This document shows positions 1 to 13,007 of a DNA stretch of 64,000 bases, piece after piece (the first letter of the stretch is position 1; every line of letters starts with the position of its first letter). Both the position numbers and the translations under genes were made by a program. The notes under the pieces are model-generated. The model was not told the origin of the DNA, did not search any database, and was given only the letters and a program-made list of their open reading frames with translations. This stretch comes from Alistipes sp. An66 (lineage in GTDB: Bacteria > Bacteroidota > Bacteroidia > Bacteroidales > Rikenellaceae), in the NCBI RefSeq assembly GCF_002161445.1, contig NZ_NFHT01000014.1, positions 1 through 64,000 of the forward strand, in the 5' to 3' direction.

Positions 1-993
1 CAATACCTTGTCGTGCGCCACACCGATACGAAACATCCCCACCTGCATATTCTCTACAACCGGGTACGCTACGACACGACGCTGGTCTCGGACCGAAACG
101 AACGCCTGCGCAACATGCGCATCTGCAGGGAACTCAAACAGGAATATGGGCTGACCTTCTCGCGCGGCAAGGAGCAGGTCTCCACGGAACGACTGCATGG
201 CCCGGAGCAACTGCGCCACCGCATTTACGACCACCTGCGGGAGCTGCTGCCCGACAGCACCTCCTGGACGGCATTAGCCGAAGAGCTGGCCAAACGACAA
301 GTCGCCACGATCTTTGTTCATCGGGGCGGAGATACGGCGAAGGAGATCCAGGGTGTGACCTTCACCCTGGAGGGGCATACGTTCAAGGCCTCGCAGGTGG
401 ATCGGAAGTTCAGTTACGGCCGCCTGACGCAACGTATCGAACAGAATCACTTCCGACAGATGATGATCGAGCGGGTCCGCAACTACGCGGACGAACAACG
501 TCCGCAGGTCACGTCCATTCTGCAAAAGCTGGAAGAGGAAAAACAACGACAACAGCAGTTAGAATCTCCGCGTTGGAATCTGTCGATTGCAGGCAAGCCC
601 TTGACCAAAGAGCAGATCGAGATGCTCCGTGAGGGAGAGCCGATCTTCGTGCGGGGGCAGCAAATGGAAGGTTATGTGGTGATGGACGACCGGCTGCAGA
701 TGGCGTGGGTCTATCGGGACGATCCGCGGGACTGGGTGGAGTATGGGAAATACACGATGCGACGCATGGATCGGGATCGAATCGAAGCGGGGTATGTCGT
801 GCGGGCACTGGTGAAATGGTGGGGAGGCACAACGGCACGTCCCTACCTGTGGAAGGAGAACGCATCAGATACGACCTATCGGGAGAGTTGGGACGATCCC
901 CGCGAACCGCGCCCTTCCCAAACCGAACGACAGCAGGATCGACCGCGCCGCTTTATCACCCCGAAGAAGAAGTCGCGAGGACCGAGTCGGTAA
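1..993 (+). CDS. Relaxase/mobilization nuclease, 5'-truncated by the window edge
   Basis: The reading frame is open from base 1, so the N-terminus with the catalytic tyrosine region lies upstream. The first visible residues contain the relaxase metal-binding histidine triad (HTDTKHPHLHILYNRV, pattern HxDxxxHxH). This is the MobA/VirD2-like fold that nicks DNA at oriT and pilots the strand during conjugation. The middle of the protein (EIQGVTF, HTFKASQVDRKFSYGRL) is typical of Bacteroidetes relaxases. The C-terminal third has a DUF3945-like stretch (LTKEQIEMLREGEPIFV) and a basic proline-rich tail. The frame ends in TAA at 991-993. The family is clear, but the MOB subtype cannot be settled without the N-terminus. 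Confidence 0.85.
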   Translation, partial: QYLVVRHTDTKHPHLHILYNRVRYDTTLVSDRNERLRNMRICRELKQEYGLTFSRGKEQVSTERLHGPEQLRHRIYDHLRELLPDSTSWTALAEELAKRQVATIFVHRGGDTAKEIQGVTFTLEGHTFKASQVDRKFSYGRLTQRIEQNHFRQMMIERVRNYADEQRPQVTSILQKLEEEKQRQQQLESPRWNLSIAGKPLTKEQIEMLREGEPIFVRGQQMEGYVVMDDRLQMAWVYRDDPRDWVEYGKYTMRRMDRDRIEAGYVVRALVKWWGGTTARPYLWKENASDTTYRESWDDPREPRPSQTERQQDRPRRFITPKKKSRGPSR

Positions 994-1589: not shown

Positions 1590-2614
1590 TTGAGTAGCTG
1601 CAGGCTCTCCATCATCAGCCCGCTGCGACGATTGTCATCTGCCTTCCAGTCAGTGGTATGGGTTGCATAGGCTGTCAATCGATTGAACAGTTCCCTCATT
1701 TTCAGATCACTATGTGCCATGGTAAGTGCAAAATGCTTCAGGTCGTATCCAGCTGCGGCATACGAAGACAGCAACCGATGACAGGGAGCTATTTCATCGG
1801 CCACGGATTCGTCCACGCCGTAGCGTTTCAGCAGACGATTTGCCGTCTGCACCTCACCCACCGATGCGTCGGTTTGCATGGCAAGCAATGCATTCGTCTT
1901 CATCTTGTTGAGATTTCGCTGCGTGAATCCCTTGTTTTCAGGTAATGACAGCATGTTGTGCATCGAAGAGGCATCGAGCTGGTTCGTCCGTGCAATTTTA
2001 TTATCTACTCGAGCCATCTGGCCGTTTGTGCAGACCATGCGCATGTAGTAGTTCCCGGCTTCCACCTCGCCCAAATTCCAGCGGAACCATATGCCGTTGG
2101 AAATGAGTTCGTCTCCGGGTGCAAATTCATCGTAAATGACATGATGGGGTTGTAAACTTACTGTGACGCCGCCAATTCCGACCTCCGAGGTATAGAATTG
2201 TTCGGGCGCATAGTCGTTTTCATTCATGAACATCTCCAGAAAATCAAAAAACGAGGTAACTGGAATGGCCTCCTTCTTGATGGGGGTTGCTCCGACAACC
2301 GTCCGCGTACCGGGGTCGGCAAGCAACGCTATTTTCCCAGCTTTTTCAATGCTGTTCGACAGAGCCAGATAGTTGCGCAGGTCGCGGATGCCTTCGCTGC
2401 CGAACGTCTCTGAAACGGCCTTTGTCTGATGTTGGGACAAACCGAGAAATGAATCCAGCAGTCTGCACACTTCCGGTTCAAAGGTCAGTTCCAAACCATT
2501 GACCTTGTAGGTATGTTCGCCCGTTGAAATGAGCTCCTGCGGCGTCACGGTACGGAAGGGCAACTGCGCCGCGACGAACGAGTCCCGTCGTCTCAAATAA
2601 GTCTGGTTATCCAT
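1547..2614 (-). CDS. DUF932-like mobile-element protein
   Basis: This 355-residue protein resembles the DUF932 family found on phages and conjugative elements, often near recombination or replication genes; its biochemical role is unknown. It has no signal peptide or membrane segment. I start at the ATG at 2614 (MDNQTYLRRRD), not further upstream. That ATG lies inside the last codons of the preceding ATPase gene in the overlap ATGGATAA, so the two genes share 8 bases and are probably translationally coupled. The extra N-terminal residues of a longer open frame are the out-of-frame end of that ATPase. The 3' end overlaps a possible degraded ORF. Confidence 0.75.
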   Translation of the reverse strand: MDNQTYLRRRDSFVAAQLPFRTVTPQELISTGEHTYKVNGLELTFEPEVCRLLDSFLGLSQHQTKAVSETFGSEGIRDLRNYLALSNSIEKAGKIALLADPGTRTVVGATPIKKEAIPVTSFFDFLEMFMNENDYAPEQFYTSEVGIGGVTVSLQPHHVIYDEFAPGDELISNGIWFRWNLGEVEAGNYYMRMVCTNGQMARVDNKIARTNQLDASSMHNMLSLPENKGFTQRNLNKMKTNALLAMQTDASVGEVQTANRLLKRYGVDESVADEIAPCHRLLSSYAAAGYDLKHFALTMAHSDLKMRELFNRLTAYATHTTDWKADDNRRSGLMMESLQLLNCPRDIRQYVNIFQ

Positions 2615-3461
2615 TGTGTTGTCTATTAAGGGTGTTGAACAATTGGTCGAAGCGGTCGGCAAAGTTGTGAAGTTCATTCCGGACATTGTGTTGCAGACGC
2701 TTGATGGCCTGTTCCTGTTCGTAGCGCTCTTCGTCGAAAAATACATCTCCCGTCGTACTCAGGTTGTAGTAGAGTTTTACCCCGACATCTCCGCGACGAT
2801 GCTTCGAGAATGTGACGTACCGGTCGGAGTAGATGTTCTTGGGATTGTCCAAACGCAGCTCCATCATTGCTGTAATCATGTGTTTCAGCCGGTTCGAACC
2901 GATGAAGGCGCCCGATTTCGTCACCTGCTGGATGGTTAGAAACGTCGTGTTGACATCGCGTTGGTTCTGTGCCTTGTTCTGCTGCTTGATGAGCGACAGC
3001 AGCATGCTCTCGGCCCGCTTGTTCGTGACGTTCTCCTCCTCCTTGACAATGCCCTGCAGTTCGTAGAACGAATCGATGGCAACAATGTCCCAACCCTCGT
3101 TGAGCGTATCGGAAACGAGTTGCCAGGTATGGGCATCTTCATCGAATCCGCACTCTACGAAGAGAATTTCCAGATCGCTGAACTTCGGGAAACGCTCGAC
3201 ATAGACCGCCAGGTCAATCTCGTTCATTTCGGCACTGATGAAGAGAATCCGTGCCGCGGGTTGCGCGGCATGAATATTGGCAAGCATGTCGAGAATGATG
3301 GTGGTCTTGCCGACGCCGGGGTCTCCGATAATCATGTAATTCACCCCTTTGGGCAGCCCCTGGTAGCTGCACAACAGGTTGTCGAGCACGGTACGGGTGC
3401 GGAAATTGACGAAGAGACTCTTGTCAAACCGCACGTCGCGCATTTTTACGATCCGATTCAT
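2607..3461 (-). CDS. RecA/RadA-fold ATPase of the mobile element
   Basis: The 284-residue product begins MNRIVKMRDVRFDKS at 3461. A Walker A motif (GDPGVGKTT) sits at about residues 46-54 and a Walker B-like strand (WDIVAIDSF) follows, giving a RecA-type P-loop core as in RadA and DnaB-like helicases. The order LFISAEMNE, then QQVTKSGAFIGSNRLKH, matches the B strand and sensor regions of that fold. The likely role is DNA handling during element replication or transfer, which is inferred. The gene overlaps the downstream DUF932-like gene by 8 bases. A TAnnTTTG box lies just upstream. A longer open frame reaches 3668, but its extra residues look non-protein. Confidence 0.75.
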   Translation of the reverse strand: MNRIVKMRDVRFDKSLFVNFRTRTVLDNLLCSYQGLPKGVNYMIIGDPGVGKTTIILDMLANIHAAQPAARILFISAEMNEIDLAVYVERFPKFSDLEILFVECGFDEDAHTWQLVSDTLNEGWDIVAIDSFYELQGIVKEEENVTNKRAESMLLSLIKQQNKAQNQRDVNTTFLTIQQVTKSGAFIGSNRLKHMITAMMELRLDNPKNIYSDRYVTFSKHRRGDVGVKLYYNLSTTGDVFFDEERYEQEQAIKRLQHNVRNELHNFADRFDQLFNTLNRQHNG

Positions 3462-3486
3462 TGCCTTTGCCGTTTTGTCGTTGAGA

Positions 3487-3494
3487 CAAAGGTA
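3487..3494 (-). promoter_or_regulatory. Bacteroidetes -7 promoter box for the RecA-fold ATPase operon
   Basis: Read on the minus strand this is TACCTTTG, an exact match to TAnnTTTG. It sits about 26 bases before the ATG at 3461. No clear TTG was seen at the -33 spacing; the nearest candidate is TTTCGG. Confidence 0.5.
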
Positions 3495-3576
3495 GAGGGC
3501 AGTACGGCCGAAACACAGCTTATGTTCCCGAACGATTGGGGAAAATGCAGTCCATGACGAAGCGGGACAGGTGAGT

Positions 3577-4047
3577 TTATCGGATGCGGTTCGGGCAATA
3601 ATTCCTGCGGAGGCAGGATGGGCAATGGGCTCCCGTCCAGACCGAGTCGAAATGGTCGGCTGCAGCATCTACCAACCCCGGCTCATCGGCCAGAATACCC
3701 GCTTCGAAGTTGCGTTTGCCATCGCTTTTCATGCCGATGTCGGCACCTGTCAGGTTGGCCGAACCGATGTCGGCAACCTCACAGTCGAAAATCAGAATCT
3801 TGAAATGAATTCTCGGGCACAGCCTGCGTTTCAAGCTTCCCCACAAGGCCGGATATCGGTCGAAATCCGCCTGGAAGTTGGGCCCCGGTTCCTTGGCATG
3901 CATCGCACCTCCACACCCCCGCCGTGCTAGAATGTCCAACACCGCAAGGAAGGGTTCGCTCCCCGTTCCGAGCTTTACGTACAAATCCTTGATGTCGGCC
4001 GTGCCGATCCACAGCATATGTTTTATATGAGCCACACGGCTCAGCAC
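3577..4047 (-). CDS. PLD-family nuclease/phosphodiesterase, possibly 5'-truncated
   Basis: This 156-residue product carries one HKD motif (HFKILIFD) followed by GSANLTGAD, the phospholipase D catalytic signature used by PLD-type nucleases. The C-terminus has a small cysteine cluster (HCPSCLRRNYC) that may bind zinc. An in-frame stop lies two codons before the GTG at 4047, and the first residues (RVAHIKHMLWIGTADIKDLYV) look like the inside of a domain, so the N-terminus may have been lost. An ATG at codon 11 is an alternative start. Single-HKD proteins usually work as dimers. The gene lies directly upstream of the ATPase and DUF932 pair. Confidence 0.65.
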   Translation of the reverse strand: MLSRVAHIKHMLWIGTADIKDLYVKLGTGSEPFLAVLDILARRGCGGAMHAKEPGPNFQADFDRYPALWGSLKRRLCPRIHFKILIFDCEVADIGSANLTGADIGMKSDGKRNFEAGILADEPGLVDAAADHFDSVWTGAHCPSCLRRNYCPNRIR

Positions 4048-4749: not shown

Positions 4750-5976
4750 CTAAAACAGGGTACGTTCGTTTTTGGGGTTTATGAAGGACCATTCGCCGCC
4801 TTTGCAGACGGCTATGCGGTCGGGATCGTCGCCCAAAAGAATGTCGTCGTATTCGGACGGTACGAGTTGTTCTCCGTTCAGGGAGAATATACCGCAACGC
4901 AGGGCCTCTTCTCGATGTCTGTTTTGTGCAAGGACAATGCATCCATGGCCTTGTGTTTCGGAATCGGGAAGCCAGTGCGGGTACACAAATCGGGCTGGAA
5001 AGACCTCTTGCACCTCCTTGTCCGGACCAATTCTTACCATTCCATAGTTCAAATCCGAACCGTTTCTATCGGTCCCGAATATCCATAGATTCTCATTTTC
5101 TTTTATCGGAATCCAGGTATAGACGCCAGCGTCTGCCGATATAATCGTGTGCCCGTCAGAATCGGCCAATCCGCAAAAAAACGTCTCTGCATCACCCACG
5201 CTGAAATACTTCCCATTCAATCTGTTTATTACGAACCAAATCGGCGGCAACAACTCCGTTCCGAAGGCATCGAGCATGCCGCACGCCCGATCATCCAGTC
5301 CACGCAACTTTTCCCGGCATGGAATATAATAGCAGATACGGTCGCCGTACAAATTGACACCCAACACATTCCCCGGTAGTGCAATTGCCGGCCGATTGGC
5401 CGTTCGTTCCCCATAAGCGTCCACATAAAACCATTCACCGGTCTGCCGGGCAAGGACCTTCCCGGCATCACAGGCTATCCGATCAAATGCAAGGATGCAC
5501 GGAACCGCCGTCTCGCCTTCTGACGTCCGGATTCCGAATTTCCCGGTTCGGGGATCCTGAACCAGAAAGCGCTCCCCGATACGGAATATCGCACCATATA
5601 TCTCGGGGACAACCTGTCGTCCGTCGTTATCCGCGATTCCGATGAGGCCTTGCCGGAACGTAAGAAAAAGTCCGTCATGGCCGGGAATCGGTTCGGGACG
5701 GCGATTGCTGCCGATGTGTATCCACGCTCCGGTTTGTGTGTCGAACAGGCGATAGCTGCTGTCCGAATCCGTCGGATGAAACTTGACATACCGCAAGTCG
5801 GTTCCCTGCCGGTCGGACCAATGGTAGTCGGCATATCGGAATCGCGCTTCGACAACAATCTCCCCGTTGCGGTCGATCAATCCATATCGACGGTCCTGTT
5901 CCGGTCCGACACCGAAGACGGCAAAGCCGTTGCGAATACCCCGGAGATGGGTAATATGGGACGGATTCAGAGGCAT
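4750..5976 (-). CDS. WG-repeat (KWG-like) beta-propeller-type protein
   Basis: This 408-residue protein is built of repeated units such as RYGLIDRNGEIVVEARF, GLIGIADNDGRQVVPEIYG, GKFGIRTSEGETAVPCI and CGIFSLNGEQLVPSEYDDI. These are the G(L/I)-D-x-G-x-x-(V/I)-x-P-x-Y/F units of the WG-repeat family. No signal peptide or membrane segment is visible, so it is probably cytoplasmic. Family function is unknown; the repeats probably form a binding surface. The gene starts one base after the stop of the WYL regulator, so the two form a tight operon and the WYL protein is the best guess for its regulator. Confidence 0.75.
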   Translation of the reverse strand: MPLNPSHITHLRGIRNGFAVFGVGPEQDRRYGLIDRNGEIVVEARFRYADYHWSDRQGTDLRYVKFHPTDSDSSYRLFDTQTGAWIHIGSNRRPEPIPGHDGLFLTFRQGLIGIADNDGRQVVPEIYGAIFRIGERFLVQDPRTGKFGIRTSEGETAVPCILAFDRIACDAGKVLARQTGEWFYVDAYGERTANRPAIALPGNVLGVNLYGDRICYYIPCREKLRGLDDRACGMLDAFGTELLPPIWFVINRLNGKYFSVGDAETFFCGLADSDGHTIISADAGVYTWIPIKENENLWIFGTDRNGSDLNYGMVRIGPDKEVQEVFPARFVYPHWLPDSETQGHGCIVLAQNRHREEALRCGIFSLNGEQLVPSEYDDILLGDDPDRIAVCKGGEWSFINPKNERTLF

Positions 5977-5977
5977 C

Positions 5978-6943
5978 TTACAATGTGCCGTTGTGCGCTT
6001 CCAGCAGATTGATTCCGACCTGCTTCATCTGGTCTCGGAGCCATGCGGGCTCCAACACTTCAAACCACTCGTCGGTATTGGCTGCCTGGGAGAGCAGTTC
6101 CTGCTGGAAATCGAGCGTCGGACGCAGGTAGAACTCGAAGAGGGAAGAATCGTCCGTAATTTCGGTCTCCTGCTGCGAAGCGTGCAGGGGCAGCGTGCGG
6201 ATGTATTGCCGCTGAATGCCCGATACCCGGACCCGAATCCGCTCCGGTTTGCAAATTCCATCAACCACCACCCCGAACGAGTCGGCAAAATAGGCCTGCG
6301 GATCGAAATCTTCGGGCAGGACAAACCGGTGTTCCGACGTGCGGAGTTCCCGGATGCGGTCCAGCGCGTAGATGCGCAGCCGGTCATCACTCGTGCTGCA
6401 TGCCACGACATACCACCGCTGGCGGAACACCTTGACGCAGTAGGGCGCCACTTCAAACGTTCGGGGCGTATCGTTCCAAAAACTCTGGTAGGTCATTTCC
6501 AGTGTCCGGTTGTCGCGCATCGTCTCGATGATCTGCGTCAGGAAACGCTGCCCCGAGGGAATCTCTTCGAAAAGAATACGTCGCTTGAGGTGGTGGCTCT
6601 CGTTGATGAGGTGATTCACGGCAAAGGTGTTCAGCAGCCACGTCCGCACGCCGCCCCGCTCCATGTCCTCGGCATGTTCGATGTAATAGAGGTAGCCGCC
6701 TTTGCGGTCGCACTCGATGTTGATGTCGAACATCTGTTGGATAGCGTTCTTGTGGTTGTGAAAGGTCTTCAGGGGAAGCTCCTCGCCGGTCTCGTTGAGC
6801 GACGAGCGCTGCCAGCGTTCGTTGATCTCCTCGAACGAGATCCGCCCGGCGCGGTAGATCGTATCGACCAGCCAGACATAGCGGTTGAAGAGCATGGCGG
6901 CGTTACTTTTCGACGAACTGCGTGTTTTTCTATTCCGTGTCAT
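5978..6943 (-). CDS. WYL-domain transcriptional regulator
   Basis: The 321-residue protein has an N-terminal winged-helix region (about residues 15-100, including RISFEEINERWQ) and a WYL domain (about 145-215, TLEMTYQSFW...FEVAPYCVKVFRQRWYVVACS, then IYALDRIREL). A WCX-like C-terminus follows, ending near FEVLEPAWLRDQMKQVG. WYL regulators bind nucleic-acid or nucleotide-type ligands and often control defence or stress genes. It is the first gene of a two-gene operon with the WG-repeat protein. A consensus -7 box lies 39 bases upstream of the ATG. Its target beyond its own operon is unknown. Confidence 0.85.
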   Translation of the reverse strand: MTRNRKTRSSSKSNAAMLFNRYVWLVDTIYRAGRISFEEINERWQRSSLNETGEELPLKTFHNHKNAIQQMFDINIECDRKGGYLYYIEHAEDMERGGVRTWLLNTFAVNHLINESHHLKRRILFEEIPSGQRFLTQIIETMRDNRTLEMTYQSFWNDTPRTFEVAPYCVKVFRQRWYVVACSTSDDRLRIYALDRIRELRTSEHRFVLPEDFDPQAYFADSFGVVVDGICKPERIRVRVSGIQRQYIRTLPLHASQQETEITDDSSLFEFYLRPTLDFQQELLSQAANTDEWFEVLEPAWLRDQMKQVGINLLEAHNGTL

Positions 6944-6989: not shown

Positions 6990-7235
6990 ATAAATACATG
7001 TGCTAAATTATGGCTTATGTTCTTAATTTCCTCTATGCCCATATAATAAATTTCAACAAGACTTTTCGATTCGAGAAGAGTTTCCAATACTTTGTGCCGG
7101 AAAGGGCAAAGTGCGATATTGCGGAATGCATGTTAAAAACATGTGTCGTGATTTTTCCCATGTGAAGACTATTTTTGGCCCTGACTGGAAAAATAAATCA
7201 GCATCATGGAAACGATACCATAAAATCACGAAGCC
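6990..7235. other. AT-rich intergenic stretch, no gene seen
   Basis: No frame here has protein-like composition. A short inverted repeat, CATGTTAAAAACATG, is present at about 7130-7144. The stretch separates the minus-strand WYL operon from the plus-strand structured RNA unit. Confidence 0.4.
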
Positions 7236-7267
7236 TTGCGCAGGGAACGGAATTTTTGCTATATTTG
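7236..7267 (+). promoter_or_regulatory. Promoter upstream of the structured RNA element
   Basis: A TTG at 7236-7238 is followed after 21 bases by TATATTTG (7260-7267), matching the Bacteroidetes promoter layout. Transcription would start near 7274. One caution: the same bases can also pair with GGACATATAGC at 7288-7298 as a hairpin followed by five T, so a terminator role cannot be excluded. Confidence 0.5.
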
Positions 7268-7273
7268 TCCTAT

Positions 7274-7463
7274 GACATAAACAAGAAGGACATATAGCTT
7301 TTTCGACGGCTTGCACTTTATCTCTTAAACCGACCAAGTAAAAAGACGAAGTACCACAAAGCCCAAGTCGGAACTCGCGTACTGCGCGGGCTTCGCTTTT
7401 TGTGGTATGGGTACCTTGGTCGGACCTTAGAGATAAAAAGCCGGAGTTCGCGCCTCTTTTTTT
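7274..7463 (+). ncRNA. Highly structured non-coding RNA of about 190 nt (6S-like in outline)
   Basis: Nested pairings are visible. TTTATCTCT (7317-7325) pairs with AGAGATAAA (7429-7437). CCGACCAAG (7330-7338) pairs with CTTGGTCGG (7415-7423). TACCACAAA (7352-7360) pairs with TTTGTGGTA (7399-7407). An apical CGCG/CGCG hairpin sits around 7376-7389. An internal bubble (about 7339-7351 against 7408-7414) separates lower and upper stems. A T7 run at 7456-7463 could end transcription. A long closed rod with a central bubble recalls 6S RNA, but that is only a resemblance. It could instead be the leader of the graspetide operon starting at 7536. Confidence 0.5.
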
Positions 7464-7535
7464 GTCTGTCCAAAACCCGACGTCAAGCGTTGCCTTTGAA
7501 CGATAAATGATGTTTAACCTTTAAATTTCAGAGCT

Positions 7536-7799
7536 ATGATTTACAATCAAACAAGAACAAGTTGCGGCACGGTGATGCCGTTGCTGATGGGATGCACCAA
7601 ACCGCAGCCTATCGAAGTCCTCCAACAGGAAGAGCCCATTATCTACGATCCCATTATGCAGATTATACCGATTGAGATGCGTATCGTAGGGACGTATTCG
7701 CTGAAATCTTTTTCCACAAAATACAGAAATACTTCGGGCGGTACAGGTAGTAAAACGGATCGAAAGAATGAGATTGACGATCAGAAGAGTGTAAAATGA
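7536..7799 (+). CDS. Candidate graspetide (omega-ester peptide) precursor
   Basis: This 87-residue peptide ends in the overlap ATGA with the start of the ATP-grasp ligase, the tight coupling expected of a RiPP precursor and its maturase. The leader-like part (about residues 1-52) is apolar with QPIEVLQQEEPIIYDPIMQ. The C-terminal 35 residues (from SLKSFSTKYRNTSGG through TGSKTDRKNEIDDQKSVK) are rich in the Thr/Ser/Lys donors and Asp/Glu acceptors that graspetide ligases join as ester or amide crosslinks. TKYR is loosely like the TxKYPSD microviridin core, but the PSD part is missing. I do not recognise a named precursor family, and the exact start (the ATG at 7536) is not certain. Confidence 0.55.
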   Translation: MIYNQTRTSCGTVMPLLMGCTKPQPIEVLQQEEPIIYDPIMQIIPIEMRIVGTYSLKSFSTKYRNTSGGTGSKTDRKNEIDDQKSVK

Positions 7800-8782
7800 T
7801 TCTGATTATCACCAACAAGGAGGACGCACACCCCACACCGGTAATCGAACGATTGTCGGCGCGGGGTGTGCCGGTCTTCCGGTTGAATACGGAGGCGCTG
7901 CTCACCGATTACGATTTTGGTTGGCAGGTCGATGCAGCCGGGGAGATCTCTTTCTGGATTCGCTGTCGGCTGAACGGACTGGAAACGACCGGACGGGAGA
8001 TAACGGCCCTTTGGGACCGTCGTCCGGAAAAGCCCGAAGAGCTTCCCTATCCAAGTACTCCGGAGATTGACCGGCACAATCGCGAGGAGGCGCTCGGTTT
8101 TCTGGTATTTTTACGTTATTGGCTCAAGGATATCCCCTCCATCGGCAGCGTGGTCAACGACCGTCCGGCAGCATCCAAGATGCTGCAATATGCAACTGCC
8201 CGCGAAGTCGGATTCAAAATTCCAAGAACGTGTTTCTCCAACTCCAGGGAACAGTTCCTGAAACTATCGCAGGAGTGTGCCGACTTGATTTTGAAGCCGA
8301 TTGATGTTTGCGATGTTTGGGACGAGAAACACGGCGTGGACTATGTTTTCTATGCCCAGAAGACCCCGGCTGCCTCTCTGCGGGAAGTCCCGAACGAAGC
8401 CTTCTCGCAAACGGTGAGTTTCGTCCAGGAATACATCGAAAAGGCGTTTGAATTACGGGTTACGGTGGTTGGAAAACAGGTTTTTGCCTGCAAAATAGAT
8501 TCGCAGGCACAGCAGGAGGAGACCGGACGCATCGACTGGCGGCAGGGGTATGAACACGGGCTGAAACAGAACGCATTTGCCTTGCCGGACACCGTCTCAT
8601 CGCAATGCGTGGCGTTCCTGTATCGGATGGGCCTTAACTTCGGTTGCTTTGACTTTATCGTTACCCCCTCGGGCGAGTACGTCTTTCTTGAATGCAATCC
8701 CAACGGGCAATGGCTTTGGGTAGAATTATCAACCGGATTGAAAATCGCAGATGCGATAGCTGATTTTTTATCAAACGAATAA
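7796..8782 (+). CDS. MvdC/MvdD-like ATP-grasp graspetide ligase
   Basis: This 328-residue cytosolic enzyme resembles ATP-grasp RiPP maturases. It opens with MILIITNKEDAHPTPVIERL, followed by NDRPAASKMLQYATAREVGFKIPRT (lid region) and LILKPI (ATP-binding lysine strand). Next comes YIEKAFELRVTVVGKQVFACKIDSQ, a segment typical of the family, and then DWRQGYEHG. The C-terminal metal-binding signature is FLECNPNGQWLWVE at about 299-312. Family members link Ser/Thr/Lys side chains of a precursor to Asp/Glu using ATP. The start codon overlaps the stop of the preceding small gene. No GNAT acetyltransferase or peptidase transporter is adjacent, so the cassette is minimal. Confidence 0.85.
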   Translation: MILIITNKEDAHPTPVIERLSARGVPVFRLNTEALLTDYDFGWQVDAAGEISFWIRCRLNGLETTGREITALWDRRPEKPEELPYPSTPEIDRHNREEALGFLVFLRYWLKDIPSIGSVVNDRPAASKMLQYATAREVGFKIPRTCFSNSREQFLKLSQECADLILKPIDVCDVWDEKHGVDYVFYAQKTPAASLREVPNEAFSQTVSFVQEYIEKAFELRVTVVGKQVFACKIDSQAQQEETGRIDWRQGYEHGLKQNAFALPDTVSSQCVAFLYRMGLNFGCFDFIVTPSGEYVFLECNPNGQWLWVELSTGLKIADAIADFLSNE

Positions 8783-8798
8783 ATGAAAAAGTTATAAT

Positions 8799-9782
8799 AT
8801 GGATTGGGTTATTGTTATCCTTTATTACATCATCTGGATTCCGATAAAATATGCAGGATTAGGTATTTGGTGGCTTGTGAGCTATCCTGCTCGCAAGCGT
8901 AGGGAGAAACTATTGGCAGAACAAGAAGCAGAATTAAAAGCACAGAAAAAAGCTCGGACGGAACAACTGAAAACTCAACGCAAGGCTCGAATAGAAAAGG
9001 CCAGGACGCAATTAGAAAATTATTTGAATCAACTGAACACATTCGATCAGTTATCACATGCACAACAAATAAAACTTTCCGAAAAATGTAACTTCAACTT
9101 CAATCGACTTGAAGATGCAACGAAAAAAATTTTTGCTGTATTTCAGAACTGGATCGTCTCCGACCCGGAGAACAAACTAAAAATGGAGAGCATCAGGAAA
9201 TGGTGTAATCGCGATCATGCGATGAATCTTTTGGTTACGAACTATTGCGATAAGTTGGCAAAAAGTAAAGAAAAAGCCTCTGCCAATACGGAACTCGATA
9301 TGCAATTCTGTCGTACAACATTACAGATGGGATTCACCACTCGTCATGCTATTTCTGCACATGAATCGATTCTCAAAAACTATTACTTACGCGCAGGAAT
9401 TACATCGATCGATTGTAGCGATCTGATTGTCAATCGTCCATGCTTTTTCAAAAGTCCGATTAAGGGGGTTACCCAAAGACAATATAACGGAGAATTGTAT
9501 TACGATATGGATAATGCAATAGAACTCACCTTTTATCTTTTTGCAGACCAATTCGAAACACTGGGCAACAGTCACGTTAGGTATCTTTTGTCGGACATTG
9601 TGAACATACAAATAGATAAAAAAATAGAAACATTGGAAGACCAAGTATCGGAAGATCATTTTATGTTATTGATAACATTACGTAATCGTTTGAATATTAA
9701 TTTCTGGTGCGATGCTTACACGGCTGTTTTTTTGCTGACGCTGTTGCCGCTTATGGCGAAAGGGTGTATAGAATTTAAGTAA
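8799..9782 (+). CDS. Unrecognised membrane-anchored coiled-coil protein of the graspetide cassette
   Basis: I do not recognise this 327-residue protein. Residues 3-32 form a strongly hydrophobic, aromatic-rich segment (VIVILYYIIW...GLGIWWLVSY), followed by a basic, Lys/Arg/Gln-rich helix (about 35-80) likely to be coiled coil. The rest looks like a soluble helical domain, with a hydrophobic stretch near 307-320 (AVFLLTLLPL). It starts 16 bases after the ligase gene on the same strand, so it is probably co-transcribed. The DNA is clearly more AT-rich than the ligase gene, hinting at separate origin. It could be a transporter partner, an immunity protein or a peptide target; nothing in the sequence decides. 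Confidence 0.6.
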   Translation: MDWVIVILYYIIWIPIKYAGLGIWWLVSYPARKRREKLLAEQEAELKAQKKARTEQLKTQRKARIEKARTQLENYLNQLNTFDQLSHAQQIKLSEKCNFNFNRLEDATKKIFAVFQNWIVSDPENKLKMESIRKWCNRDHAMNLLVTNYCDKLAKSKEKASANTELDMQFCRTTLQMGFTTRHAISAHESILKNYYLRAGITSIDCSDLIVNRPCFFKSPIKGVTQRQYNGELYYDMDNAIELTFYLFADQFETLGNSHVRYLLSDIVNIQIDKKIETLEDQVSEDHFMLLITLRNRLNINFWCDAYTAVFLLTLLPLMAKGCIEFK

Positions 9783-9859
9783 AACCTCATCCATGATACA
9801 TGATGTGGTTGATTTTAGTCTTATCCTAAATATGGATTGTCATAACTCAAAAGAAAGTC

Positions 9860-10144
9860 ATGGTTAGATTTTTAACTTTTATTTTATTGACAGTGAGCAT
9901 CGTGGTTCTTGTCGCTTTCGATGTGCTCATGTGGGGCCTGACCTGGAAAGCCGGGCTTGCCGGTCTGCTTCCCCTGGCAGGATTTCTGATTGCTTACAAG
10001 TACAGCGTTGAGATGTGCATTGCCCCGCGTGATTTCTGGGCAAACCCCGATTGGGAGATTGCCAAGAAAAAACTGGGATATGCATGGTCGACGGCCGGTA
10101 CCCTCCTTTTTATCCTCTTAGTCGCCTCCGCGGCTGTGTCGTAG
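9860..10144 (+). CDS. Small multi-pass membrane protein, unknown
   Basis: The 94-residue product has three hydrophobic segments: about 4-22 (FLTFILLTVSIVVLVAF), 26-46 (LTWKAGLAGLLPLAGFLIAY) and 74-93 (WSTAGTLLFILLVASAAV). A short loop containing FWANPDWEIAKKKLGY lies between the last two. The composition is convincingly that of a membrane protein. It follows the coiled-coil membrane protein on the same strand after 77 bases. The role is unknown; it could be an accessory or immunity protein for the cassette. Confidence 0.55.
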   Translation: MVRFLTFILLTVSIVVLVAFDVLMWGLTWKAGLAGLLPLAGFLIAYKYSVEMCIAPRDFWANPDWEIAKKKLGYAWSTAGTLLFILLVASAAVS

Positions 10145-10487: not shown

Positions 10488-11171
10488 ATGAACATCAAAG
10501 AATCGTTGAAAACGGCTGTTTACCCGTTGTATGAGAAATTGGCGAAAATCGAACAGGAGAAAAGCTACACGACATTTTGCGTGCAGTGGGGTGAAAAATA
10601 CCAACCCGGAGGCTTGCTGTTCGTCGGACGCGCCACCTATGGATGGGCCGTGGACGACCGGGATACCAAACGGTTGTTCACGGATGGTTGCGAATCGCAG
10701 GTATTTGCCCGTCCCGACCAGATGAAGTGGGTGGAGAGTTATTGGAAAAAATCCGCATTCTGGCGGGTTATCCGGAACGTTACGCAGGGGGTGATTGGCC
10801 CGCAGCCGGACTGGTATGAACATATTGCATGGGACAATCTTTACAAACTGTCTCCGGATGGTTCGAATCCTTCCAATGCGCTGTGCAAGAAACAGGAAAA
10901 CCTCTGTTTTGAGATATTCAAGCAGGAATTGTCTGTCCTGCGGCCAAAGGTTGTCATACTGCTCACCGGGAAGAACTGGAATTATGATTTCCTGTGCAGT
11001 GTGAACAATGATACGGCGCCTGCTGTTCTTGAGGAGAAAAACTGGGCCGGATACAAGGCTGTTGTTTACAAAATCGGAGATACCGTATTCCTCGGGACAG
11101 AACATCCGCAAGGGAAATCGGAAGCGGAACATGTCGCTGCCTTGACGGAACTGGCGAAGAAATACATGTAG
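10488..11171 (+). CDS. Uncharacterized protein, possibly uracil-DNA-glycosylase-like fold
   Basis: This 227-residue soluble protein contains GGLLFVGRATYGWAVDD early, AWDNLYKLSPDGSNPSN in the middle, LRPKVVILLTGKNW, and LGTEHPQGKSE near the end. The order of a glycine-rich strand-loop, an Asn-Leu-Tyr segment, a hydrophobic strand and a late His-containing loop recalls the uracil-DNA glycosylase superfamily, but the classical motifs are not intact. I therefore treat the assignment as tentative. It stands alone and is closed by a strong terminator. No link to the neighbouring cassette is shown by the sequence. Confidence 0.6.
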   Translation: MNIKESLKTAVYPLYEKLAKIEQEKSYTTFCVQWGEKYQPGGLLFVGRATYGWAVDDRDTKRLFTDGCESQVFARPDQMKWVESYWKKSAFWRVIRNVTQGVIGPQPDWYEHIAWDNLYKLSPDGSNPSNALCKKQENLCFEIFKQELSVLRPKVVILLTGKNWNYDFLCSVNNDTAPAVLEEKNWAGYKAVVYKIGDTVFLGTEHPQGKSEAEHVAALTELAKKYM

Positions 11172-11276: not shown

Positions 11277-13007
11277 ATGTCTCGAACTTTGTTGCTGAAA
11301 TCAAATTCGGATGCCATGAAACGGAGATTGGATGCGAAAGAAACAGTTTGTGATACGGAGGTTAAACAGGTTCAGGACGGAAAGAAATCGAAGCAAACCT
11401 TGATCGGAGCCATCGAGCAGATTGTCAACCTGGCAGTTGAACTGAAACTCGGGGATACCTTCCATGAAAAGGCCCGCCCTGCCTTGGCGTATGTTGCCGA
11501 GAGCATGTCGCTCAACGAGGAACAGGCGCTGGTTTTCGCCCTCTTTATTGAAAAAAGCACAGACGACCATATCCAAATCAGCGACTTCGCCGAGTTGGTG
11601 GGATGCCGTACAGTGCGTATTATTTCGATGATGGCCGAAGCCGATATGTTGGTCGAAAAACGTTTCATCCGACGCATCAAGGATGGAGATTCTATCTGTT
11701 ATTCCGTGCCAAAGGAGTTGGTGAACGCCATCAAGGAGAACCGGGTATATACTCCAGCTCCGATTGATCATTTGACAACTGAACAGCTTTTCGACCGGAT
11801 GGCCGAGGTTTTTAAGGGAACCGATAAGGATCGGCTGTTGCAGGAACTTGACCTGTTGGTTGCCGCCAACCCGCAGCTTGCCTTCTGCCGGACGATTCAA
11901 TCCTACGGTTTAAGGGATTACAACGAAGAAAGGTTGCTTTTGTACGTTTTCTGTAATCGCTTCATCAATCTGGACAATGATATGGTTGGCGAACACGACT
12001 GGGATGAGTTTTTTTCTCGAAGCGACATGCGTTTTATATCCTATCATTTGAAAGGCCACAGTCTTGTACTTCAGACGATGAACGTCCTCGAAAACTGTAA
12101 CTCCGATGGCATAAACGATCCGGAATATTATCATCTGACGAACAAAGCTAAGGAAGAGTTGTTCGCCGATCTACATTGGACAGATCAGCAGACCAAAAAG
12201 AAAAGCCACCTGCTTGACTGCACGACTTTCGCCGCCAAGGAGCTCTTCTATAACCCGGCGGTGCAGCGGCAGATTGACCGATTGGGAGAACTCCTCGACC
12301 CCGAACATTTCGCCGATATCCAGCAGCGGCTGGAGGCGGGCGGTATGCGCAAGGGGTTTGCCTGCCTCTTCTACGGTGCGCCGGGGACGGGCAAGACCGA
12401 GACGGTCTACCAGTTGGCGCGTCGCACGGGGCGCGATCTGATGGTTGTCGATGTTTCACAGATCAAGAGTTGTTGGGTCGGCGAGAGTGAGAAGAACATC
12501 AAGGCGGCATTCGACCGTTACCGCTCTTATGTGCGCCAATCAGAGCGAGTCCCGATCTTGCTCTTTAACGAGGCGGATTCCGTGCTGGGTATCCGCCAGG
12601 AGGGGGCACAGCGGGCCGTCGAGAAGATGGAAAACTCAATCCAGAATATTATTCTGCAGGAGATGGAGCAGTTGGACGGCATCATGATTGCCACCACGAA
12701 CCTTACACAGAATCTGGACAAGGCTTTTGAGCGGCGTTTTCTCTATAAGATCGAGTTCGAGAAACCCTCGACGGAGGCGAAGAGTCGGATCTGGCGGTCG
12801 ATGATTCCGACACTCAACGAGCGGATGGCTGAGACACTGGCCGAACGGTACGATTTCAGCGGTGGACAAATTGAAAATATCGCCCGCAAACGGACGGTTG
12901 ATATGATCCTGCAGGGCGCGGAGCCTTCATTCGAGCAACTCGACGAATACTGTCGTTCGGAAATACTCGGGCAGCCGGAGCGGTCGCGGCGCAAAATCGG
13001 ATTTTGA
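11277..13007 (+). CDS. AAA+ family ATPase
   Basis: This 576-residue protein has a classical AAA+ module in its C-terminal 40%. Walker A GAPGTGKTE is at about 367-375, VSQIKSCWVGESEKNIKAAF follows as the pore-loop region, Walker B ILLFNEADS is at about 428-436, sensor 1 reads IATTN, and the second region of homology contains NLDKAFERRFLYKIEF. The Walker B has Asn in place of the usual first Asp, keeping the Glu-Ala-Asp that follows. The N-terminal 300 residues are helical without a known motif, probably substrate-binding. Such proteins act as remodelling motors; the target is unknown. An ATG 36 bases downstream (MKRRLDAKETV) is an alternative start. Confidence 0.8.
   Translation: MSRTLLLKSNSDAMKRRLDAKETVCDTEVKQVQDGKKSKQTLIGAIEQIVNLAVELKLGDTFHEKARPALAYVAESMSLNEEQALVFALFIEKSTDDHIQISDFAELVGCRTVRIISMMAEADMLVEKRFIRRIKDGDSICYSVPKELVNAIKENRVYTPAPIDHLTTEQLFDRMAEVFKGTDKDRLLQELDLLVAANPQLAFCRTIQSYGLRDYNEERLLLYVFCNRFINLDNDMVGEHDWDEFFSRSDMRFISYHLKGHSLVLQTMNVLENCNSDGINDPEYYHLTNKAKEELFADLHWTDQQTKKKSHLLDCTTFAAKELFYNPAVQRQIDRLGELLDPEHFADIQQRLEAGGMRKGFACLFYGAPGTGKTETVYQLARRTGRDLMVVDVSQIKSCWVGESEKNIKAAFDRYRSYVRQSERVPILLFNEADSVLGIRQEGAQRAVEKMENSIQNIILQEMEQLDGIMIATTNLTQNLDKAFERRFLYKIEFEKPSTEAKSRIWRSMIPTLNERMAETLAERYDFSGGQIENIARKRTVDMILQGAEPSFEQLDEYCRSEILGQPERSRRKIGF

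Follow-up and report, generated by a model that had tools for sequence, protein, structure and literature searches.

Graspetides such as microviridin, chryseoviridin, and plesiocin, a group of ribosomally synthesized and posttranslationally modified peptides (RiPPs), combine an MvdC/MvdD-like ATP-grasp ligase with a small precursor whose leader carries the signature Phhx(1,2)h and whose core holds Thr, Ser, or Lys donors and Asp or Glu acceptors. The same features are found at positions 7536 to 8782 of the window, i.e., the whole stretch analyzed here, which spans positions 1 to 64,000 of contig NZ_NFHT01000014.1 (79,283 bases) of Alistipes sp. An66. A sequence-only reading had proposed a minimal graspetide cassette at this position, consisting of a precursor, a ligase, two membrane proteins, and an upstream RNA. 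We confirmed that the open reading frames (ORFs) of 87 and 328 residues overlap by ATGA and that the ligase contains both motifs quoted in its favor, and the assignment of the two genes to a graspetide-type precursor and its ligase is supported. The pair is likely to constitute a graspetide-type RiPP module in the full biochemical sense, from leader binding and ring joining to a cyclized hairpin. Its parts are as follows.

7536 to 7799, plus strand: graspetide-type precursor gene, 87 residues (conservation beside the ligase, alignment, survey)
7536 to 7688, plus strand: leader, residues 1 to 51, with P15-L-L-M-G-C (P15 in 43/43 precursors; Phhx(1,2)h signature)
7689 to 7718, plus strand: first constant core part, G52 to T61, with T53, S55, and T61 (alignment)
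7719 to 7757, plus strand: variable loop, residues 62 to 74 (loop comparisons)
7758 to 7796, plus strand: second constant core part, D75 to K87, with D75, K77, N78, D81, D82, and K84 (alignment)
7796 to 8782, plus strand: ATP-grasp ligase, TIGR04187/MvdC/MvdD-like (profile matches, structural relatives, tree)

The sequence-only reading had named outcomes that would speak against it, among them a small ORF not kept beside homologous ligases, or varying freely at its end, and a ligase of non-RiPP type; neither was observed. For comparison, the best 80 of 389 relatives, found with patterns from the window ligase, were taken as loci (handles beginning with L), and 62 of them form the counted set; the precursor count takes in L048 and L051 and leaves out four outgroup loci. 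Two loci labeled Bacilli and Clostridiales (L028 and L037) are probably mis-binned. A small ORF with the D-N-DD-K pattern, ending within a range from 26 bases upstream to 4 bases downstream of the ligase start, is present in 52/62 Bacteroidota loci, and five further loci (L054, L056, L057, L058, and L066) carry a precursor of a GGG subtype ending in DD. The remaining five include L018 and L021, which belong to the family by eye, the divergent L035, the truncated L051, and L059, with no such ORF in range. In a survey of 295 Bacteroidales genomes, the precursor profile matched five, the same five that encode a ligase at E <= 5e-95, and in all of them the two genes adjoin at a distance of at most 27 nucleotides. 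Another 22 survey genomes held only more distant ATP-grasp proteins (best E 6.7e-46) and no such precursor. Silent precursor copies elsewhere in the genome were considered and rejected, since a single match was obtained. Neither Pfam nor NCBIfam matched the window precursor at E values up to 1, and the ligase had no PADLOC match; therefore, pipelines relying on these libraries miss the pair or name only the ligase.

The ligase matches ATP-grasp peptide maturase models over its full length, scoring 202 bits with TIGR04187, 159 with MvdC, and 159 with MvdD, far above the 49 bits obtained with RimK; the grasp-with-spasm model TIGR04192 gave 112. Solved structural relatives are 5ig8, 5ig9, AMdnB (7m4s), and CdnC (7mgv). 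A tree of 75 ligases places the window protein in a clade with support of 98/90 whose 61 rows come almost entirely from Bacteroidota. The nearest relative, L003 (Candidatus Alistipes faecigallinarum), has a ligase of 91% identity. The strict conservation of ECNPNGQW among the loci partly reflects how they were selected, that peptide having been one of the search patterns. The ligase is patchily distributed, occurring in 2/151 genomes of the genus. A phage-borne unit was rejected, as viral contigs yielded only seven ligases at 28 to 32% identity, and no plasmid-borne ligase exceeded 35% identity among the best 20 of 87 plasmid records.

Alignment A1, of 43 precursors hand-picked to exclude the GGG subtype, near duplicates, and the L004 (partial) and L035 (divergent) sequences, revealed an invariant framework within the 35 C-terminal residues. 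T53, N78, D81, and D82 are present in 43/43 sequences, as are Y37 and P15 of the leader; D75, K77, and K84 are each found in 42/43 and T61 in 38/43, and position 55 is Ser in 36 and Cys in 7. The core thus reads G-T-x-[SC]-L-[KR]-x3-T, a T61-D75 spacer of 4 to 20 residues, and D-x-K-N-x-x-D-D-x-K, with the Ser/Thr/Lys donors and Asp/Glu acceptors noted from the window alone. Ahead of it, PLLMGC or PLLMGF fits the Phhx(1,2)h signature as defined in PMC8939145; about half of known graspetide precursors have it. A gammaproteobacterial small ORF before a ligase (L063:5741-5973) has a similar end (DKKTADDTK), and from this sequence the framework may reach beyond Bacteroidota. The GGG motif is found in the precursors of L054, L056 to L058, L066, and L055. 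Within this side group, a radical SAM protein lies beside the ligase in L057, L056 and L058 share the cluster, and L066 encodes a fused 619-residue protein whose C-terminal half resembles a nuclease-like family.

Between the constant parts, the loop is replaced often, not always. Its change was measured as segment identity against the family background instead of as dS (synonymous divergence), which is saturated in the core and was dropped because the loop alignment is arbitrary. The ligases of L005, L006, and L007 are mutually 90 to 94% identical, and in the three pairwise comparisons of these loci the 300 upstream bases (93 to 94%), the leader (92 to 97%), and the ligase start (86 to 91%) are comparably close. 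Their loops are only 37 to 44% identical, against 43 +/- 9 for 300 random family pairs, with intermediate values in the flanking stem parts (70 to 93% and 74 to 81%). L018 and L022 show 99% identity upstream, 79% in the leader, 90% at the ligase start, and 27% in the loop.

This architecture suggests a mechanism. The ligase would bind the leader around P15-L-L-M and use ATP to activate core carboxylates, most likely those of D75, D81, and D82. The activated groups would then be joined to donors across the core, most likely T53 and T61 and possibly Ser/Cys55 or a conserved lysine. In graspetides, such links are side-chain esters or amides, each formed with a loss of 18 Da. The predicted product is a cyclized hairpin. 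Its stem would be constant and cross-linked, and its loop, 4 to 20 residues long and free to change, could serve as the recognition element. Such a peptide is most likely used in microbial conflict, either with phages or with rival microbes. As a first choice, which we hold tentatively and at less than even confidence, it would act inside the cell in a defense-like role, together with neighboring DNA- or membrane-directed proteins.

Several observations weigh against this interpretation. The ligase scores under every curated cut-off and therefore belongs to an unnamed subfamily. Main clade precursors have no GG-type cleavage site, a feature that is not strictly defining for graspetides (about half of precursors), and no exporter or C39 peptidase family was matched by at least two of the 150 neighboring proteins scanned; leader removal and export are therefore unexplained. 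There is no same-strand gene within 200 nucleotides downstream in 16/62 loci (the window counted, L048 left out, some loci cut by contig ends), and defense-like neighbors may only mark residence in defense islands. Loops are less changed in window/L003 and L011/L013 (56%) and in L042/L052 (70%), and they are identical in L008/L009. The cores of L034/L039 and L046/L053 lack any amino acid change, with some changes in the leader; set against the swapped loops, this indicates that leader and core change independently. Furthermore, loop type does not track the downstream genes in L005 to L007.

The surroundings of the pair are less minimal than had been claimed, with uracil-DNA glycosylase (UDG)-like and AAA ATPase genes further downstream on the same strand and WYL and WG-repeat genes upstream on the opposite strand. 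The features flanking the pair are as follows.

4750 to 5976, minus strand: WG-repeat protein (Pfam; homologue in L062)
5978 to 6943, minus strand: WYL-domain regulator (homologues in L062, L092, L004 to L007, and L069)
7260 to 7267, plus strand: TATATTTG, promoter-like box of the RNA (conserved in L003, similar in L092)
7268 to 7466, plus strand: structured leader RNA that forms a single long nested hairpin and has a T-run (z -5.0; homologues in L003, L062, and L092)
8799 to 9782, plus strand: protein with a membrane helix, a coiled coil, and a C-terminal PH-like domain (residues about 217 to 320); variable accessory gene
9860 to 10144, plus strand: 94-residue membrane protein (homologues in L003, 66%, and L062, 52%)
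10488 to 11171, plus strand: UDG-superfamily-like protein (weak Pfam match, model and Foldseek, alignment)
11277 to 13007, plus strand: IetA-like AAA ATPase (L003 homologue directly upstream of the RNA)

Of the two membrane proteins put forward as partners, the 94-residue one, with three hydrophobic stretches by eye, is shared with L003. The coiled-coil protein begins 16 bases after the ligase stop and its gene is AT-rich as described (38.0% GC, compared with 52.7% in the ligase gene and 58.1% across the window), but it was rejected as a core part on account of this composition and its absence from L003, despite the 91% identical ligase there. The protein ends in a PH-like domain that the sequence-only reading did not mention, derived from a weak model (pLDDT, the predicted local distance difference test score, of 62 overall and about 80 in most of that part) in which the SIN1 PH domain matched with a template modeling (TM) score of 0.62 by target length and E 1.3e-4. 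In L004, L006, and L069, a part like this protein is fused to a UDG-like part, thereby linking 8799-9782 to 10488-11171. The latter protein is predicted to have a UDG-superfamily fold with the His-Pro motif: its model (pLDDT 77) retrieved UdgX, SMUG1, or TDG at Foldseek ranks 1 to 46, with modest scores (TM 0.34 to 0.49, best E 4.7e-4), and the motif is present in 10/10 aligned proteins. The AAA ATPase was called IetA-like by PADLOC (E 1.7e-29) and lies under the NCBIfam cut-off; the IetAS anti-phage system pairs IetA with an IetS protein. Near the left end of the window, a relaxase (13 to 993, plus strand; Pfam Relaxase, E 2.3e-12) and a KaiC/DnaB-like ATPase (2607 to 3668, minus strand) suggest, by their sequences, a mobile element beside the locus.

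The RNA upstream of the precursor had been read as a folded unit with its own promoter. Both the fold and the promoter-like box, TATATTTG, which we take to be a Bacteroidota promoter motif, hold, but a specific tie of the RNA to the graspetide is not supported. Positions 7272 to 7466 fold better than 200/200 shuffled sequences (z -5.0) and end in a T-run; no Rfam match was found, and a known RNA of that collection was thus rejected. Homologues in L003, L062, and L092 share the single long nested hairpin, in which 2/51 pairs are changed on both sides, so that sequence conservation is strong and covariation support thin. The RNA is single copy in the source genome, is present in 3/151 genomes of the genus, and stands directly before the first gene of a unit. 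In the window and L003 this gene is the precursor, and in L062 it encodes a zinc-finger protein (start placed by eye). In L092 the RNA precedes genes for DUF6140 and UDG-like proteins, and the ligase search gave no match in that genome. The RNA is therefore not specific to the graspetide. The window, L062, and L092 each have a WYL homologue close to the RNA; none was found in the L003 stretch. By eye, a GAAGCC-TGCGCAG element (7229 to 7243) ahead of the RNA promoter is similar to the apical stem of the RNA (7382 to 7396, CTGCGCGGGCTTCGC) when the latter is read as its reverse complement; the element also occurs upstream of the RNA in L003 and L062 and partially in L092, and it may be an operator, perhaps for the WYL regulator.

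Neighboring genes rotate among relatives, and PD-(D/E)XK nucleases, TerB, and restriction-type proteins are overrepresented in them. The window and L003 share three DNA blocks, namely, RNA-precursor-ligase (87%), the 94-residue membrane protein gene (75%), and the AAA gene (83%, at another place), and the L003 stretch lacks both the coiled-coil gene and the UDG-like gene. L062 combines WYL, WG, the RNA, a DnaJ-zinc-finger-like protein, precursor, ligase, the 94-residue homologue, and a PDDEXK_4-type nuclease whose cluster includes a protein called PDC-S26 by PADLOC. A scan of same-strand neighbors (152 ORFs from 45 non-redundant loci, 150 of them scanned; L059 and L067 gave none) matched PDDEXK_4 in 11, TerB in 10, SH3_3 in 5, GmrSD_N in 4, Radical_SAM in 3, and WYL in 2. 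Genome-wide density would predict roughly 0.01 PDDEXK_4, 0.08 TerB, and 0.04 GmrSD_N, figures that draw on 149 genomes with 36 PDDEXK_4 matches, assume a mean genome size of 3.4 Mb, and use estimates from the matches listed as the TerB, GmrSD_N, and WYL totals. Shared descent of the loci inflates the observed counts, and defense-island clustering would raise the expectation. PADLOC assigned PDC-S26 to nine neighbors and HEC-06 and SspE-type to four, among the 25 of 115 families listed. A TerB-like gene also lies upstream of the precursor in L038, L041, L043, L044 (Pfam TerB), L047, and L049, and likewise in survey genome G231.

These neighborhoods bear on what the peptide does. An anti-phage or DNA damage response module, in which the cyclized peptide senses or controls adjacent effectors (nuclease, UDG-like protein, AAA ATPase, or membrane proteins), is a possibility that we rate somewhat short of an even chance. 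It accords with the enrichment of PDDEXK_4, TerB, and GmrSD_N, the PADLOC-named neighbors and the IetA-like AAA ATPase, the WYL regulators near several loci, and the patchy occurrence in the genus. Nevertheless, this is guilt by association: effectors vary by locus, some loci have none nearby, WYL accounts for only 2 of the 150 neighbors, and common ancestry swells the counts. Its most elaborate form, a RiPP-armed immune module for anti-phage or DNA damage-triggered defense inside the cell, with a cyclic peptide whose cross-linked stem stays constant, a naturally swapped recognition loop, and interchangeable DNA- or membrane-directed effectors, in some loci under a WYL regulator and the leader RNA, is rather unlikely.

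Alternatively, the product might be released from the cell as an antibacterial or protease-inhibiting graspetide. Enzymes whose genes lie elsewhere would cut and export it, the 94-residue and other membrane proteins would provide self-protection, and the loop would track the changing targets of rivals. Protease inhibitors do figure among known graspetides in the account of PMC8939145, small membrane proteins recur (the 94-residue protein in the window, L003, and L062, and another family in 19 loci), and the GGG of the side group could be a cleavage site. We nonetheless regard secretion as fairly doubtful given the missing GG site and exporter families discussed above and nuclease, TerB, and UDG-like neighbors that are unusual for export. 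A graspetide cassette that merely resides in defense islands beside unrelated genes seems comparably unlikely. The close relatives window and L003 do differ in neighbors and loops do not follow downstream genes in L005 to L007, but same-strand genes directly adjoin in 46/62 loci, and nuclease, UDG-like, and membrane families recur at this position in several lineages. Finally, a small protein conserved to its very end with no cleavage site or protease could be an adaptor or regulator that the ligase binds or modifies, e.g., by amino acid addition, as RimK-type enzymes of this superfamily do with glutamate. This reading is improbable in view of the graspetide leader signature, the donor/acceptor framework, and a ligase that matches peptide maturases much better than it matches RimK.

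As a graspetide-type module, the family offers a precise and testable core framework across gut Bacteroidales with natural loop variants on a fixed scaffold; these variants indicate where change is tolerated and could help to find the target. Should the link to defense hold, bacterial immunity would include a ring-forming RiPP. In the open-licence literature, the core framework found no motif match, a search that did not extend to supplementary group tables, so that a published group may contain it. Likewise, "Bacteroid" is absent from the main text of Carter 2026, which covers 43 RODEO graspetide groups (PMC13097080).

Compared with the described groups, the cores of alignment A1 lack the TxKxPSD of microviridins and the TTxxxxEE of plesiocins, as the sequence-only reading, from which both motif names are taken, had noted for the window. 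Unlike graspetides in general, the main clade has DNA-directed and membrane neighbors in place of an exporter or peptidase, and no GG site. Grasp-with-spasm systems (Makarova branch 5, TIGR04192, Carter group 14) share the phylum, an ATP-grasp enzyme, and a small precursor. However, the window ligase scores less than half the TIGR04192 cut-off of 230 bits and best with TIGR04187, and none of the 10 window proteins scanned is a radical SAM or SPASM protein, although radical SAM does occur in the GGG side group. Branch 5 precursors are described in PMC8939145 as lacking Phhx(1,2)h and having GG sites. Branch 1 graspetides of the candidate phyla radiation (CPR), given in the same account as TxxxTx(6-10)Dx(1-4)D, also show two Thr, a spacer, and then Asp behind a Phhx(1,2)h leader; the present family differs in its T-x7-T spacing, D-x5-DD, K-N framework, and phylum. 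Gra-4, as presented in PMC9576775, has TxxKxxDD, with an Asp pair alongside Thr and Lys, in short repeats, in contrast to the single core with a long variable spacer found here. Fuscimiditide (ThfA/ThfB) comes with an isoaspartyl methyltransferase, a family matched by fewer than two of our 150 neighbors, and it shares the cross-linked stem and loop, the stem being predicted in our case. Its enzyme accepts loops of 0 to 72 residues according to PMC12291112, and the loop variation that was engineered there occurs naturally in the family described here.

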